The notes under the pieces were generated by a model. It was not told the DNA's origin and ran no database searches. It saw nothing but the letters and a program-made list of their open reading frames with translations. A stretch of 64,000 bases of DNA. Source: Pseudoblastomonas marina. Its GTDB lineage: Bacteria; Pseudomonadota; Alphaproteobacteria; Sphingomonadales; Sphingomonadaceae. Of this stretch, positions 20,051-25,782 are shown piece after piece; the first letter of the stretch is position 1, and every line of letters begins with the position of its first letter. Location: the NCBI RefSeq assembly GCF_014641655.1, contig NZ_BMID01000001.1, positions 62,001-126,000 of the forward strand. The letters run 5' to 3'. A program made the translations under genes and the position numbers.

Positions 20051-21808
20051 TCAGGCGTCGGCCTTGTCCGCCTCGGGCTTGTCCGCCTTCGCGTCGTCCG
20101 GCTTGTCCGCGCTCTTGCGCTGGCTGGCGATCAGCTCGTCGGCGCTGGCGGGGGCGACGTCTTCCAGCTCGCGATCGTCGCTCGCAGCCTTGCTCGGTCC
20201 CTTAACGAGGTTGTCGAGCGAGCTGCCGTCGAGGCCGAGCTCCTTCATCAACCCATCGAGCACCGGCGCCTGAGCGCGATAGGACAGCGCCGCGCTGACC
20301 GCATCGGTCGCGAGGTTGCCACTCCCACCGCCGGCGACGGTGCCGCCCGAGCCGCCCCCCTTCTGGGTGAGCCCGTCGACCTGCACGATCTTGATCGATT
20401 CGATCGCCTCCATCGGCTTGGCGCTCTCGCGCACGAGGTCGGGCAGGACCTTGAGCAGCGCGAGCTTGGTCTGGAGTGAGATCTGGCCCGAGGACAGGAT
20501 GTTCGCCGCCTCGTTGATCGCCCGCTGGCCTGCGGCTTCCACTTCGAACCGGACCCGCGCGGCTTCGGCGCGCAGCTTCTCGGCCTCGGCCTCGCCCTGC
20601 GCTTCGAGCCTTGCGGCCTCGGCGCGGTTGGTCGCGGCATCCTTTTCGGCCTCGGCTTCGACCTTGACCCCGATCGCGTCACGCTCCGCCTGCTTGGCCG
20701 CCTCGATCAGCTCGATCTTCTTCTGGCGCTCGGCGATTTCGCTTTCGCGACTGGTGACGACCTGCTCTTCCGCAGCGACCGCCTTAGCACGGGCCTCGTC
20801 GGCTTCGGCCTTGGCCTGGCTTTCCTCGCGGCTCTTGTTCTGGACCGCAATCTGCTGTTCCTGGCGGGCGATTTCGAGCGCGCGGGTCTGGTCGATCCGC
20901 GCTTCCTCGACCAGCCGGTCGGCCTCGATCTGCTGGGCGTCTACCTGCTTCTTGGCCTCGATCCGCGCGGCATCGGCTTCGCGCGTGCGCTCGGCCTGCT
21001 CGCGGGCGATTTCGGACGCTTGCGCGGCGCGCCGGACCTCGACTTCGCGCTCCTGCTCGAGCCGCGCATATTCCTTATCGCGGCCGATTTCGAACGATCG
21101 CTGGTCGGCTTCGAGGTTCTTGGTCTCCATCTGGACGCGGGTGTCCTGCTCGATGTCGTTGCGCAATTTCTTGCGCGCCTCGATCTGCTCGGTCAGCTTG
21201 GTCAGGCCCTCGGCGTCGAAGGCGTTGTTGGCGTTGAAATGCTCGATGCTGGTCTGATCGAGCCCGGTCAGCGAGACCGATTCGAGCTCGAGACCGTTCA
21301 TCGACAGGTCGTTGGACGAGACCTGCTGAACCTTCTGAACGAAATCCGCGCGCTGTTCGTGCAGCTCGTTCATCGTCATGCCCGCAGCGACGGAGCGCAG
21401 CGCGTCGACGAACTTGCCCTCGACCAGGTCTTTCAGCATTTCGGGCTGCATCGTGCGCTGGCCGAGCGTCTGTGCCGCCATCGCGATCGCGCCGCTATCG
21501 GGCTTCACGCGAACGTAGAACTCCGCCTTCACGTCGATCCGCAGGCGGTCGAGCGTGATCAGCGCCTCGGTGTCGCGGCGTACCACCGACAGCACCAGCG
21601 TGTTCATGTTGACCGGCATGGTCTCGTGGAACACCGGCAGCACCAGCGCGCCCCCGTTCATCACGACGCGTTCGCCGCCCACACCGGTGCGGACGAAGGC
21701 GGTCTCTTTCGATGCCCGGCGGTAAAGCCGCGCGATCGTGAAGCCGATGATGAGGATGAGGAGAAAGCCTCCCCCGGCGAGAATGGCGATGTTGGACAGG
21801 TTTTCCAT
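20051..21808 (-). CDS. yqiK: Flotillin family protein (YqiK-like)
   Basis: Membrane-domain scaffold of 585 residues: an N-terminal transmembrane helix (about residues 7-26), an SPFH/band-7 domain, and a long Glu/Ala/Arg coiled coil (about residues 230-430), then a Gly-rich hinge and an acidic Lys/Asp tail. It should oligomerise into a flotillin cage at membrane microdomains. It follows yqiJ by 29 bases with a clear GGAG ribosome site, the standard pair. A terminator ends the unit. Confidence 0.92.
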   Translation of the reverse strand: MENLSNIAILAGGGFLLILIIGFTIARLYRRASKETAFVRTGVGGERVVMNGGALVLPVFHETMPVNMNTLVLSVVRRDTEALITLDRLRIDVKAEFYVRVKPDSGAIAMAAQTLGQRTMQPEMLKDLVEGKFVDALRSVAAGMTMNELHEQRADFVQKVQQVSSNDLSMNGLELESVSLTGLDQTSIEHFNANNAFDAEGLTKLTEQIEARKKLRNDIEQDTRVQMETKNLEADQRSFEIGRDKEYARLEQEREVEVRRAAQASEIAREQAERTREADAARIEAKKQVDAQQIEADRLVEEARIDQTRALEIARQEQQIAVQNKSREESQAKAEADEARAKAVAAEEQVVTSRESEIAERQKKIELIEAAKQAERDAIGVKVEAEAEKDAATNRAEAARLEAQGEAEAEKLRAEAARVRFEVEAAGQRAINEAANILSSGQISLQTKLALLKVLPDLVRESAKPMEAIESIKIVQVDGLTQKGGGSGGTVAGGGSGNLATDAVSAALSYRAQAPVLDGLMKELGLDGSSLDNLVKGPSKAASDDRELEDVAPASADELIASQRKSADKPDDAKADKPEADKADA

Positions 21809-21837
21809 GGCGTCTCCTTGGTCGTTGAAGGCGGGGA

Positions 21838-22482
21838 TCAGTCGGTCGGCGACAGGCGTCGCTCGGAAAGGGCGGTGGCGAAGAAGATATTGCCGTCGCA
21901 GCGGACGAGGAGGACCTCGTCGCCTGACAGGAATTCGCTCGAGGTCTCGTGCGGCTCGACCATCACGTGGTGCTGCTGGCCGTGGACGTCCTTCACCCGC
22001 GCGCGGGCGGGCGACGCGGCGCGCGCAGTGCCGTCGGTGATCGTGGCTCGGCGGCCGACCAGGCTTTGCGTGCTCACCGCGGTGCTTTCATCCTGCGGGA
22101 TGATCGCGCCCAGCGGACGCGCGACCACGCCGGTCACGGGCAGCGCTGCGCCGCCGGCGAACAGCGCCGCCAGCCAGCTGTAGAGCGGGGCCCCGGTCAG
22201 CCCCGCGGCGAGTTGCTGGATGCCCAGTCCGAGCGCGGCGAAAGCGAACAGGAACGTCGCGAGCCAGATCGTGAACGGCACGCGTCCGATCCCGAGCAGC
22301 GTGAACAGCCCGTCGAGCGGCCCGGCAGAGATCGCCGCGTCGCCGTCGAGATCGGCATCGAGGTCGATTTCCGCCTCGGCGCCCAAGGCATCGCCCAGTC
22401 CCACAGCCTGGGCAAGTGCCAGTGCGAGCATCAGGCCCAGCGCGGCGGCGAAGGGCAGGTTGTGCGGTTCGAACAGCGTCAT
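21838..22482 (-). CDS. yqiJ: YqiJ/NfeD-like OB-fold membrane protein
   Basis: A 214-residue inner-membrane protein with about three hydrophobic helices in the first 120 residues and a C-terminal OB-fold (GRRATITDGTA to FFATALSE). YqiJ-type proteins accompany flotillins and are thought to help organise them. It leads the two-gene unit with yqiK. GGAGG lies ten bases before the ATG. The upstream 536-base gap holds its promoter. Confidence 0.88.
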   Translation of the reverse strand: MTLFEPHNLPFAAALGLMLALALAQAVGLGDALGAEAEIDLDADLDGDAAISAGPLDGLFTLLGIGRVPFTIWLATFLFAFAALGLGIQQLAAGLTGAPLYSWLAALFAGGAALPVTGVVARPLGAIIPQDESTAVSTQSLVGRRATITDGTARAASPARARVKDVHGQQHHVMVEPHETSSEFLSGDEVLLVRCDGNIFFATALSERRLSPTD

Positions 22483-22581
22483 GGGCGCGTGCCTCCATTC
22501 CCGGCGGCCATGCTCCGGATTGTATTAATCCCTCCATATTTCATACTGTTCACGTAGCAGAAAGCTGCGCAAAAAGACAGG

Positions 22582-22624
22582 AAAATCGGAATTCGTGAAT
22601 CCGATTTTTCAGTTGTGCGCAACT
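22582..22624. repeat. Hairpin plus adjacent dyad upstream of yqiJ
   Basis: AAAATCGGA and TCCGATTTT (22582-22590 and 22600-22608) form a 9-bp arm pair around a 9-base loop, with one more T and then CAG on the plus strand. Directly beyond, AGTTG-TGCG-CAACT forms a second dyad. They lie 100-140 bases upstream of the yqiJ start, so they could be an operator or a leader terminator. Confidence 0.55.
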
Positions 22625-22965
22625 TTATTGTGCCCTTGCGCGGTTCCATTACCCATGATGGGCGCCATGCGAACGCGCTATTTTCCTACACCTGCCAATG
22701 AGAGTACCGTGGCGGCGTTTCTCGAGGCGGCGAGGCGATGGCTGTATCCAATTTCTCCCTGCGTTCTGCGGCGGAGCCCTCGCCAAGTAGCGAAATGTGC
22801 CACCCTGCAATCCGCAGGAATGCGGTAAGTCGTTCAGCAACAAATACTTGGTTCGATCACGGTGAGCGTGACACGGTGATGAGGCCCGTCGCTCCGTCTG
22901 GCAGGCGCCGTTTCCTTCGAGGACAGTGTAACACCCGGTCCATGCCGCCCCCGTCGCGCCGGAGT

Positions 22966-22991
22966 GTAACCGGGCGCAAGTGGCGTCCGAA
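22966..22991 (+). promoter_or_regulatory. SigF-type autoregulated promoter (GTAACC-N16-CGAA)
   Basis: GTAACC at 22966-22971 and CGAA at 22988-22991 are spaced by exactly 16 bases. As I recall, this is the consensus of Caulobacter SigF-dependent promoters. It ends 27 bases before the ATG chosen for the sigma factor, so the gene would be autoregulated and the upstream GTG at 22980 cannot be the start. Confidence 0.75.
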
Positions 22992-23018
22992 CCCGGCGGC
23001 GATGGTGGAGCGAAACGC

Positions 23019-23543
23019 ATGAAGGCCGACGACGGCACCCTGCGCAGGTTGATGGTGGCGGCCCAAGCGGGCGACAAACGCGCATATGCGGTTTTGCTCG
23101 AGGCATGCGGCGACTGGCTGCGGCGGTACTATGCGCAGAAGATCGCGGTCGAGGCGGTGGACGGGCTGGTGCAGGACGTGCTGCTGTCGATCCATCGCAA
23201 GCGGGCGAGCTACGATCCCACGCGCGCCTTCCTGCCGTGGCTCGCTGCGATCGCGCGTTATCGCTGGATCGACCGACTGCGCAAGGACTACCGCCACGCC
23301 GCCGACGAGCTGCACGACGACACCGCGAGCGTCGCGGCAGAGGACGAGGCGGTGGCCGCCGCAGTCAGCCTCGAGCGACTGATGGCGCATCTCAGCGACA
23401 AGCAGAACGACGCTATCCAGCTGGTCAAGATCGAGGGGCTCTCGATCCGCGAAGCGGCAAAGCGGACCGGCCAGAGCGAAAGCGCGGTCAAGGTAAACAT
23501 CCATCGCGGCGTGAAGAAAATGGCCGCCCTGATCGAAGAGTGA
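23019..23543 (+). CDS. sigF: ECF sigma factor, SigF-like (paired with NrsF)
   Basis: A 174-residue group-IV sigma factor: region 2 with FLPWLAAIARYRWIDRLRK (about residues 68-86) and region 4 with LSIREAAKRTGQSESAVKVN (about 138-157). The start at 23019 follows GGAG and lies downstream of a SigF-type promoter. It is followed after 6 bases by an NrsF-family membrane anti-sigma, so it probably stays bound at the membrane until a redox or metal signal frees it. In Caulobacter the SigF/NrsF pair answers to chromate and cadmium; the same signal is inferred here. Confidence 0.93.
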   Translation: MKADDGTLRRLMVAAQAGDKRAYAVLLEACGDWLRRYYAQKIAVEAVDGLVQDVLLSIHRKRASYDPTRAFLPWLAAIARYRWIDRLRKDYRHAADELHDDTASVAAEDEAVAAAVSLERLMAHLSDKQNDAIQLVKIEGLSIREAAKRTGQSESAVKVNIHRGVKKMAALIEE

Positions 23544-23549
23544 TTGAGC

Positions 23550-24182
23550 ATGCCTACCCTAATCGAAAGCCTCGTAGACGAACTCGAGCCCGTCGATCCG
23601 CTGCGCCCGACGCGGCCCGCCACCACCATGGCGGCGCTGACCGCGATTCTGGCGATCGGTACGGTGATGACGCTCGGTCTTCGCGACGACCTGGCGGCGG
23701 GAGAGCCGCAGGCGATCTTCCTGTTGCGATCGGGCGTCTTGGGGCTGATCGGGGCGGCGACCTTCGCCGCGGTGGTCTCGGCGGCGCGGCCCGGTGTCGG
23801 CAAGCACCACGACGGATGGAAATGGGCGCTGGGCTTCGGGGCGATCTTCCCGCTCTCGATGGGTGTACTCGCGATCGTCGACGGGGGCATCTCGCGCGCC
23901 ATCATCGAGGCACCGTCGGCGCGGATGTGCGTTGCCGTCGGCTTGCTGGGCGGCATGGTGCTCGGTGCGCCGCTCACCGCCTGGCTGCGCGGTGGAGCGG
24001 TGGTCGATGCCGAGCGTACCGGCTGGCTGGTGGGTTTTGCGAGCGGGGCCTTCGCGCTGCTGGCCTACAACATCCACTGCCCGAGCAGCACGATCACCTA
24101 TATCGGCCTGTGGTACAGTTCTGCGCTGGGCATGGCGGCGATCGCCGGGAGGCTCATCGTACCGCGATTCCTGCGCTGGTGA
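23550..24182 (+). CDS. nrsF: NrsF family (DUF1109) anti-sigma factor
   Basis: Six-helix inner-membrane protein of 210 residues with a short cytoplasmic start (MPTLIESLVDELEPV) that should hold the sigma factor. Two cysteines, Cys127 (ARMCVAV) and Cys177 (NIHCPSS), are 50 residues apart, the spacing of the sensing pair I recall from Caulobacter NrsF. Start ATG at 23550 is used; a TTG two codons earlier is possible. Its stop touches the acyl-CoA synthetase stop with no gap. Confidence 0.92.
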   Translation: MPTLIESLVDELEPVDPLRPTRPATTMAALTAILAIGTVMTLGLRDDLAAGEPQAIFLLRSGVLGLIGAATFAAVVSAARPGVGKHHDGWKWALGFGAIFPLSMGVLAIVDGGISRAIIEAPSARMCVAVGLLGGMVLGAPLTAWLRGGAVVDAERTGWLVGFASGAFALLAYNIHCPSSTITYIGLWYSSALGMAAIAGRLIVPRFLRW

Positions 24183-25715
24183 TCAGCCGGAGGCCTGCGC
24201 GGCCTCGCGATATTCGTCGCGCAACAAGCGCTTGTAGAGCTTGCCGGTCGGCTCGCGCGGCAATTCTTCGCGGAAATCGATCCTCCGTGGCATCTTCACC
24301 CGACTGAGCGCCTCGCCGAGGAAGTCGCAGAGCTCGTCGGCCAGTTCGTTGCCCGCGAGCGCCATGTCGACCGGCTGGACGACCGCGATCACCTGCTCGC
24401 CGAGATCGTCGTGCGGCTCTCCGATCACCGCGGCATCGGCGACCTTTTCATGGCTAACCAGCAGGTTTTCGACCTCCTGCGGGTAGATGTTCACCCCGCC
24501 CGAGATGATCATGAAACTCTTGCGATCGGTGAGGTAAAGGAAGCCGTCCTCGTCTTCCCATCCGACATCGCCGAGCGAAGTCCAGCCGTGCTTGTTGGCG
24601 GCCTCGGCAGTCTTGGCGGGGTCGTTGTGGTAGGAAAACGGCTTGCCGTCGGAAAAATAGACCTGTCCTTCGGTTCCGTGCGGCACCTCGTCGCCGTTCT
24701 CGTCGCAGATTCGGATCGTGCCGATCAGCGCCTTGCCGACCGAGCCCTTGCGCTCGAGCCAGTCGGCGGAATTGATGAAAGTGAACCCGTTGCCCTCGGT
24801 GCCTGCGTAATATTCGAACAGGACCGGCCCCCACCATTCGATCATCGCTTCCTTGACCGGGATCGGGCAGGGCGCGGCGGCATGGATCGCGCATTTGAGG
24901 CTCGAGACATCGTATTTCGCGCGGGTCTCGCTCGGCAGCTTGAGCATGCGGACGAAATGGGTCGGCACGAATTGCGCATCGGTGACCTTGTGTTCCTCGA
25001 TCAGGGCGAGCGCGCGCTCGGGGTCGAACTTCTCCATCACCACCACCGTGCCGCCGATCCGCTGCACGGTCATCGACCAGCGCAGCGGTGCCGCATGATA
25101 GAGCGGTGCGGGCGACAGGTAGACGCTGTCGGACTTGATCCCGAATGCCATGCTGGCAAGGCCGACCAGCGCATTGGGCGCGGTCAGTTCGGGCTCTTCG
25201 GGCAGCGGCAAGCGTACGCCCTTGGGCTGTCCTGTCGTTCCCGAGGAATAGAGCATGTCGGCCCCGGCGCGCTCGTCCGCGATCCGCTCTGGCGGCATTG
25301 CGGCCAGCGCAGCGGCAAGGTCACGCTCTCCCGTGCCGCGGACGCGCAATTGCGGCACCGCCTCGCATTCCTGCGCCACCGCATCGAAGAGCTCGGACTG
25401 GGCCTCGGTGCAGAACAGCAGCTTCGCGCCGCTATCCTTGAGGATGTAGCAGATCTCGGTCGCGGTCAGCCGGTTCGAAATCGCCACCATCAGCCCGCCA
25501 GCGCGATTGATGCCCCAGGCGAGCGGGAAATACAGCGCATCGTTGTCGAGGCAGACGGCGACCGGATCCTCGATCCCGATGTCGCGCGAGCGCAGCAATT
25601 GCGCGACGCGGTTCGATTGCGCCTCGAGCTCGGCATAGGTCGTGACCTCGCCGGTGGCGGCCATGACAATCGCAGGCTTGTCCGGCTGGCTTTCGGCGTG
25701 AACCGATGGATGCAT
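24183..25715 (-). CDS. Acyl-CoA synthetase (AMP-dependent)
   Basis: ANL-superfamily ligase of 510 residues that activates an acid through an acyl-AMP. Motifs seen in order: phosphate loop YSSGTTGQPKGV (about residue 170), YAGTEGNG, GDVGWEDEDGFLYLTDR, and the catalytic lysine in PTGKLYKR near the end. Start at 25715 follows an AAGAGGGAGAGAG stretch; the longer frame upstream is not family-like. Substrate not determinable; fatty acid or aromatic acid are equally open. Confidence 0.92.
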   Translation of the reverse strand: MHPSVHAESQPDKPAIVMAATGEVTTYAELEAQSNRVAQLLRSRDIGIEDPVAVCLDNDALYFPLAWGINRAGGLMVAISNRLTATEICYILKDSGAKLLFCTEAQSELFDAVAQECEAVPQLRVRGTGERDLAAALAAMPPERIADERAGADMLYSSGTTGQPKGVRLPLPEEPELTAPNALVGLASMAFGIKSDSVYLSPAPLYHAAPLRWSMTVQRIGGTVVVMEKFDPERALALIEEHKVTDAQFVPTHFVRMLKLPSETRAKYDVSSLKCAIHAAAPCPIPVKEAMIEWWGPVLFEYYAGTEGNGFTFINSADWLERKGSVGKALIGTIRICDENGDEVPHGTEGQVYFSDGKPFSYHNDPAKTAEAANKHGWTSLGDVGWEDEDGFLYLTDRKSFMIISGGVNIYPQEVENLLVSHEKVADAAVIGEPHDDLGEQVIAVVQPVDMALAGNELADELCDFLGEALSRVKMPRRIDFREELPREPTGKLYKRLLRDEYREAAQASG

Positions 25716-25782
25716 GTCTCTCTCCCTCTTGGGAGAGCTTAACCGCGCGATTAAACGGCGCAAGGAAAAGGAGGGGGGCAAC

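Follow-up and report, generated by a model that had tools for sequence, protein, structure and literature searches.

The 64,000-nucleotide stretch analysed here (the window) carries, directly upstream of a sigF-like gene, an exact match to the promoter form of ECF group 16 sigma factors. Taken as a whole, the locus is very probably best explained by an ECF16-type promoter that would be read by its own sigma factor, by a bufferin operon that would have been shortened, and by a gene for a 111-residue membrane protein as a second target. The promoter alone is a textbook ECF16 case, and what merits following up is the apparent shortening of the operon and the small membrane protein, which is conserved.

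The initial annotation had described GTAACC, 16 bases and CGAA on the plus strand at 22966-22991, 27 bases before the sigma factor start, and had compared them with the promoter consensus of Caulobacter SigF. All of this was borne out: the -35 element GTAACC lies at 22966-22971 and the -10 element CGAA at 22988-22991, bases 22992-23018 separate the latter from the ATG at 23019, and the C. crescentus SigF consensus is printed as GTAACC-N16-CGAA (PMC3511200). A T precedes GTAACC at 22966, so that the 11-position ECF16 form TGTAACC-N16-CGAA is matched at 11 of 11 positions (22965..22991, plus strand), in agreement with the printed group 16 consensus tGTAACc-N16-CGAA (PMC3420878); the runners-up in the window, at eight places, score 9/11. 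On both strands of the 64 kb, GTAACC-N15..17-CGAA matched at this site only, and dinucleotide-preserving shuffles of the window gave a mean of 0.13 matches, with at least one match in 13 of 100 shuffles. The pattern is also printed as (T/C)GTAAC-N17-CGAA (PMC8315932), and the S. meliloti RpoE7 promoters contain TGTAAC and CGAA (PMC6180224). The motif of B. japonicum EcfF, GTAAC(g,a)-N14-15-(c,t)CG(t,a), differs from the form in the window (PMC3420878). GTGTAAC is present twice upstream of sigF, at 22926-22932 and 22964-22970, 38 bases apart, and the second copy alone has CGAA at the proper distance. The other copy could be a relic or a different operator.

A longer reading frame with a GTG start at 22980 would open within the promoter, which makes the ATG at 23019 the better start. 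The earlier argument that the promoter fixes the start codon is thus sound, and it has a precedent in B. japonicum EcfF-OsrA, where ecfF likewise has its own promoter of ECF16 form and its start codon was corrected by means of this promoter (PMC3420878). By analogy with ecfF, whose transcript starts 6 bp past the -10 box, transcription is predicted to start at 22997..22998 (plus strand), and GGAG at 23007..23010 (plus strand), 8 bases before the ATG, is likely the ribosome binding site.

The sigma factor gene (23019..23543, plus strand) encodes 174 residues, close to the ~175 residues expected of ECF16, with Sigma70_r2 and Sigma70_r4_2 as the only domain types detected by Pfam. Among the 25 NCBIfam matches listed, the protein exceeded only the general sigma70-ECF cut-off, and it reached 159.1 bits for subfamily PRK12539 (cut-off 171). 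As expected for an ECF16 neighbour, the next gene (23550..24182, plus strand) codes for a 210-residue membrane anti-sigma factor of the NrsF family (PF06532, formerly DUF1109), which was matched with 124.3 bits (cut-off 26.8) over positions 1-204 of 204. Both reading frames are intact. The anti-sigma factor carries C127, kept in 52 of 53 aligned sequences, and C177, kept in all 53; the two are 50 residues apart, and the published cysteine pairs of ECF16 anti-sigma factors are C131/C181 or C129/C179 (PMC3511200, PMC3420878). Six membrane segments are expected of an ECF16 anti-sigma factor; hydropathy alone yielded five stretches after merging, of which two overlap. Because the protein scored 57.6 bits for the NrsF equivalog NF042994 and missed the curated cut-off of 300, it is labelled here as NrsF-family and not as an NrsF orthologue. 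What the locus shares with SigF-NrsF of C. crescentus, the ECF16 prototype (PMC3511200, PMC8224329), is the sigma/anti-sigma pair, the promoter before sigF and the cysteine spacing. An ECF16-type promoter that is probably self-activated is well supported, if ordinary.

The window and one relative (G131) have both flanks of the locus in common, with murA-, galU-, flotillin- and yqiJ-like genes on the left and fadD-, M23 peptidase-, peroxiredoxin- and glnE-like genes on the right. In the window the corresponding Pfam types are EPSP-synthase/MurA, nucleotidyl transferase/GalU, flotillin and YqiJ, followed on the other side by AMP-binding enzyme, M23 peptidase, AhpC-TSA and GlnE; the genes next to the locus are flotillin and yqiJ (20051..22482, minus strand) and a fadD-like acyl-CoA synthetase gene (24183..25718, minus strand). 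The order in G131 is TGTAACC-N16-CGAA, two DUF2282 genes, an MNIO gene, a DUF2063 gene, doxX, sigF and nrsF, and its sigma factor is 68% identical to that of the window. This makes G131 one of the Buf1 bufferin clusters with sigma factor and NrsF genes (PMC12452194), whereas the window has only the promoter and the sigma and anti-sigma factor genes. The two adjoining DUF2282 genes of G131 (L124 13154-13510 and 12719-13009) encode bufferin precursors, one of them with a lipoprotein-like signal as judged by eye. The names bufA, bufB, bufC and MsrP are used here in what we take to be the sense of the papers.

When the five G131 proteins were compared with the whole window by tblastn, the best E value was 0.23 and nothing was hit in the intergenic bases that separate yqiJ from the promoter (22483..22964), in which no remnant of bufA, bufB, bufC or doxX was detected. 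MNIO (PF05114) gave zero matches in the whole genome, so that the combination of bufA and MNIO that marks a Buf1 cluster is absent, and Oxidored_molyb/MsrP gave zero matches as well. MNIO and MsrP genes represent two known kinds of targets of C. crescentus SigF, the former within a DUF692/DUF2282/DUF2063/DoxX set and the latter as YedY/MsrP (PMC3511200). The single DoxX gene of the genome (L120) is located elsewhere, and by eye no site was seen before it.

From this comparison we infer that the present operon arose by shortening from an ancestral bufferin operon with the order bufA-bufB-bufC-doxX-sigF-nrsF; with its upstream genes lost, the promoter at its head would now stand directly before sigF. 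It would also be conceivable, if rather unlikely, that sigF-nrsF on its own is the older state and that G131 gained its bufferin genes by insertion, with no loss here. The missing remnants of the five proteins would suit an insertion, as would the absence of MNIO from 29 of the 74 NrsF-positive family genomes. Against this, NrsF was found in 45 of the 48 MNIO-positive family genomes, and bufferin genes, doxX and sigF-nrsF stand together in 20 fetched loci, and partly so in Caulobacter (PMC3511200), which favours loss. A congener (G059) had no NrsF match, and a flotillin probe for the syntenic place in its genome found nothing and was uninformative.

Conservation of the promoter was analyzed before the sigma factor homologues. 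NrsF-family matches were present in 74 of 149 family genomes (73 above the family cut-off) and gave 84 loci, six of which (L025, L026, L094, L095, L097 and L098) had no usable sigma alignment and were left out. Together with the window, the other 78 loci supplied 79 upstream regions of 300 bases each. Their scan, with spacers of 15-17, detected GTAACC/CGAA at 10 of 10 positions in 23 regions, the window included, and at 9 of 10 in a further 15, where single-base shuffles predict 0.06 and 1.43, respectively. Scores in the other 41 were just 6 to 8 of 10, equal to those of shuffles. Operon structure partly accounts for the regions that have no motif: doxX stands directly before the sigma factor gene in 32 of 78 loci, and 30 of these had no motif within 140 bases even when small variants were allowed. 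Among the 46 loci with no upstream doxX the motif was found in 31 and absent from 15 within the same distance, and in two of the latter (G141 and G074) an exact 11-position site lies ~280-285 bases upstream of the sigma factor gene. The looser form GTAACN-N16-CG(A/T)A, counted with no chance control, was present in 20 of 20 bufferin-type loci of our own choice, where it preceded bufA or, in G073, in which bufA went unrecognised, MNIO. All 11 bufferin loci that lie on the same strand (L330-L340) have a second GTAAC(C/T)-N16-CGAA within bufC or at its end, ~80-200 bases upstream of doxX; it may act as an internal promoter or be a coincidence of the coding sequence.

Autoregulation had been called very likely at the outset. 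The recurrence of the motif before sigma factor homologues speaks for this claim, and the C. crescentus data temper it, as the sigF promoter there is partially SigF-dependent, shows no strong autoregulation under metals and is only slightly less active in a sigF mutant, i.e. it persists without SigF (PMC3511200). Since that promoter is active without SigF, another sigma factor may read the sigF site here too. PbcrS of B. melitensis also remained active without bcrS (PMC8315932). That the site is a genuine promoter used chiefly by another ECF or by the housekeeping sigma factor, with little self-activation, nevertheless appears distinctly unlikely, given that sigF overexpression increased sigF promoter activity in C. 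crescentus (PMC3511200) and that B. japonicum ecfF went up 18.8-fold in the absence of its anti-sigma factor (PMC3420878). BcrS-AbcS of B. melitensis, an ECF16 pair like the one in the window, has TGTAAC and GCGAAT as -35 and -10 elements and is described as autoregulated (PMC8315932).

The preferred reading, in which the sigma factor serves its own promoter, is modelled on C. crescentus, B. japonicum and others: the membrane anti-sigma factor would retain the sigma factor as long as the cell is not stressed. Envelope stress of an oxidative or thiol-reactive kind would act on the conserved cysteines and release it, and the free sigma factor together with RNA polymerase would then read TGTAACC-N16-CGAA. 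Transcription of the own operon would yield more sigma factor and more inhibitor, and the targets would be turned on. Copper is an additional candidate signal by analogy with C. crescentus, where copper induces the SigF regulon and a sigF mutant is sensitive to copper (PMC8224329). Fusions of S. meliloti rpoE7 gave no response to H2O2, Cd or chromate (PMC6180224). BcrS-AbcS controls bcrXQP under HOCl (PMC8315932); an Oxidored_molyb gene was not found in the present genome.

The consensus had also been proposed as a means to find the rest of the regulon. In the short form given then, and in looser variants, it did not clearly exceed the control: GTAACC-N15..17-CGAA had 14 matches in the genome against 9 for the reversed pattern, GTAACC-N16-CGWA had 5 against 5, and YGTAAC-N16..18-CGWA had 21 against 41. 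Ten of the 14 and two of the 5 matches were inside or against long reading frames or had no convincing start, as judged by a heuristic scan, and the four left of the 14 precede sigF, the 111-residue protein gene, trxA and an aquaporin gene. With control counts so close for the first two patterns, the full sets of matches were rejected as a regulon. The idea did work once the extra T was added and genomes were compared with each other. TGTAACC-N16-CGAA has only two sites in the genome, before sigF and the 111-residue protein gene, and none in the congener; 18 genomes of our choice had 83 sites against 14 for the single reversed pattern used as control.

BLAST clustering of the genes downstream of these sites recovered sigma factor genes (12), small membrane proteins (8 genomes), another membrane protein, mostly of 194-213 residues (6), MsrA-type (5) and thioredoxin/DsbD-type (5) proteins, and a PHO4-type transporter, a pyridine nucleotide-disulphide oxidoreductase and a methyltransferase (3 each), identified by Pfam searches of one or two members per cluster. 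They resemble the B. japonicum EcfF regulon with its methionine sulfoxide reductases, thioredoxin and DsbD-like protein (PMC3420878). The 194-213-residue family was seen at L140, L150, L157, L202, L135 and L155 (read as 114 residues at L155), and the single member searched had no Pfam match. An SDR-like set (G048, G103 and G131) was left out of the targets: the site in G048 lies within a longer frame, and the set was dropped by inference from this.

In the present genome the best-supported remaining target, as judged by sequence, would be the 111-residue protein gene. Its TGTAACC-N16-CGAA lies at C1:1023033-1023059, with 9 bases between its end and the ATG (C1:1023069), and the -35 element overlaps the stop codon of an upstream glutathione peroxidase gene (PF00255). 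In 6 of 8 examined cases the small gene follows a glutathione-peroxidase-like gene; the upstream reading frame ends alike in these 6 of 8 genomes, and the site is clear of its stop in two of the six. The 111-residue protein had no accepted Pfam or NCBIfam family. In Pfam, member 1 of the small-protein family had nothing below E 0.1 and the others had weak matches, the best being YwiC (2.6e-05, in 2 of 8); NCBIfam matches were weak as well (member 1: PspM, 19 bits, cut-off 80). A structure model built from one member (L253) has four helices (pLDDT 79.3, pTM 0.52) and no match in the PDB at E <= 0.001.

The small gene is present in 37 of the 149 family genomes, and its site follows the presence of NrsF. 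Where NrsF is present, a site with 10 or 11 of 11 positions preceded the small gene in 19 of 28 genomes; where NrsF is absent, in 0 of 9 (Fisher p 0.0004). Removal of the eight genomes whose motif-found genes had defined the family left 11 of 20 and 0 of 9, respectively (p 0.005). Both p values are optimistic because the genomes are related. One NrsF match was below the cut-off (G051) and one NrsF-negative genome had only a fragment of the small gene (G026); with these two removed as well, the counts were 11 of 19 against 0 of 8. Contrasts within genera were as expected for G000 and G059 and for G073 and G140 (the G073 site has a spacer of 15 and is outside the 19), and uninformative or mildly contrary for the genera of G100 (NrsF, no site) with G006 and of G051 (weak NrsF, no site) with G128. 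In the best 80 of 172 small-gene loci, a sample that partly overlaps the first, 37 scored at least 10/11 with spacers of 15-17 (0.24 expected from single-base shuffles) and 43 scored below 10/11; in four of these 43 (L279, L309, L315 and L326) the start as placed does not fall on a start codon. Of the 37, 18 have exactly 9 bases between the -10 element and the start. With the promoter 9 bases from the ATG, the mRNA of the small protein is predicted to be often nearly leaderless. The balance of these data tips slightly towards a membrane protein of ~106-121 residues, often with a near-leaderless mRNA, as the conserved output of ECF16 in Erythrobacteraceae; it may be the main effector here, in which case a metal or oxidant sensor would have been re-tasked. 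In the published accounts of ECF16 regulons, as far as consulted, this protein is not named as a target. A search of open-access titles, listed in part, found none on an ECF16/NrsF regulon for Sphingomonas, Novosphingobium, Erythrobacter, Sphingomonadales or Erythrobacteraceae.

The absence of MNIO and Oxidored_molyb/MsrP matches, the congener with no NrsF and the reduction to two 11-position sites could also suggest that the sigma/anti-sigma pair is a decaying relict that controls nothing useful after its effector genes have gone. This is very doubtful, as both reading frames, both cysteines and the exact promoter are preserved and the second site is retained before a conserved gene. A mere coincidence of the ten-position pattern, with sigF transcribed from another start, can practically be dismissed, for although such matches do arise by chance, as the own-genome and reversed-pattern counts illustrate, the position, strand, exact spacing, extra T and recurrence before homologues make chance very unlikely at this site.

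The locus appears to be one where a promoter and a sensor/sigma pair outlive the genes they formerly served, and it offers a direct test of the role of ECF16 where bufferins and MsrP are absent. Tightening the motif by one base and comparing genomes led to a conserved gene of unknown function that would be under a stress sigma factor. Two further matches to the short form were seen in the present genome. GTAACC-N16-CGAA at C1:1298301-1298326 (minus strand; L122) lies 46 bases before trxA, overlaps the end of an upstream UvrD-type helicase gene and is preceded by G, not T; trxA is a possible further target. GTAACC-N15-CGAA at C1:2292824-2292848 (minus strand; L123) is followed after 9 bases by an aquaporin-like (MIP) gene, which comes after a helix-turn-helix (HTH_20) gene; this match is probably due to chance.
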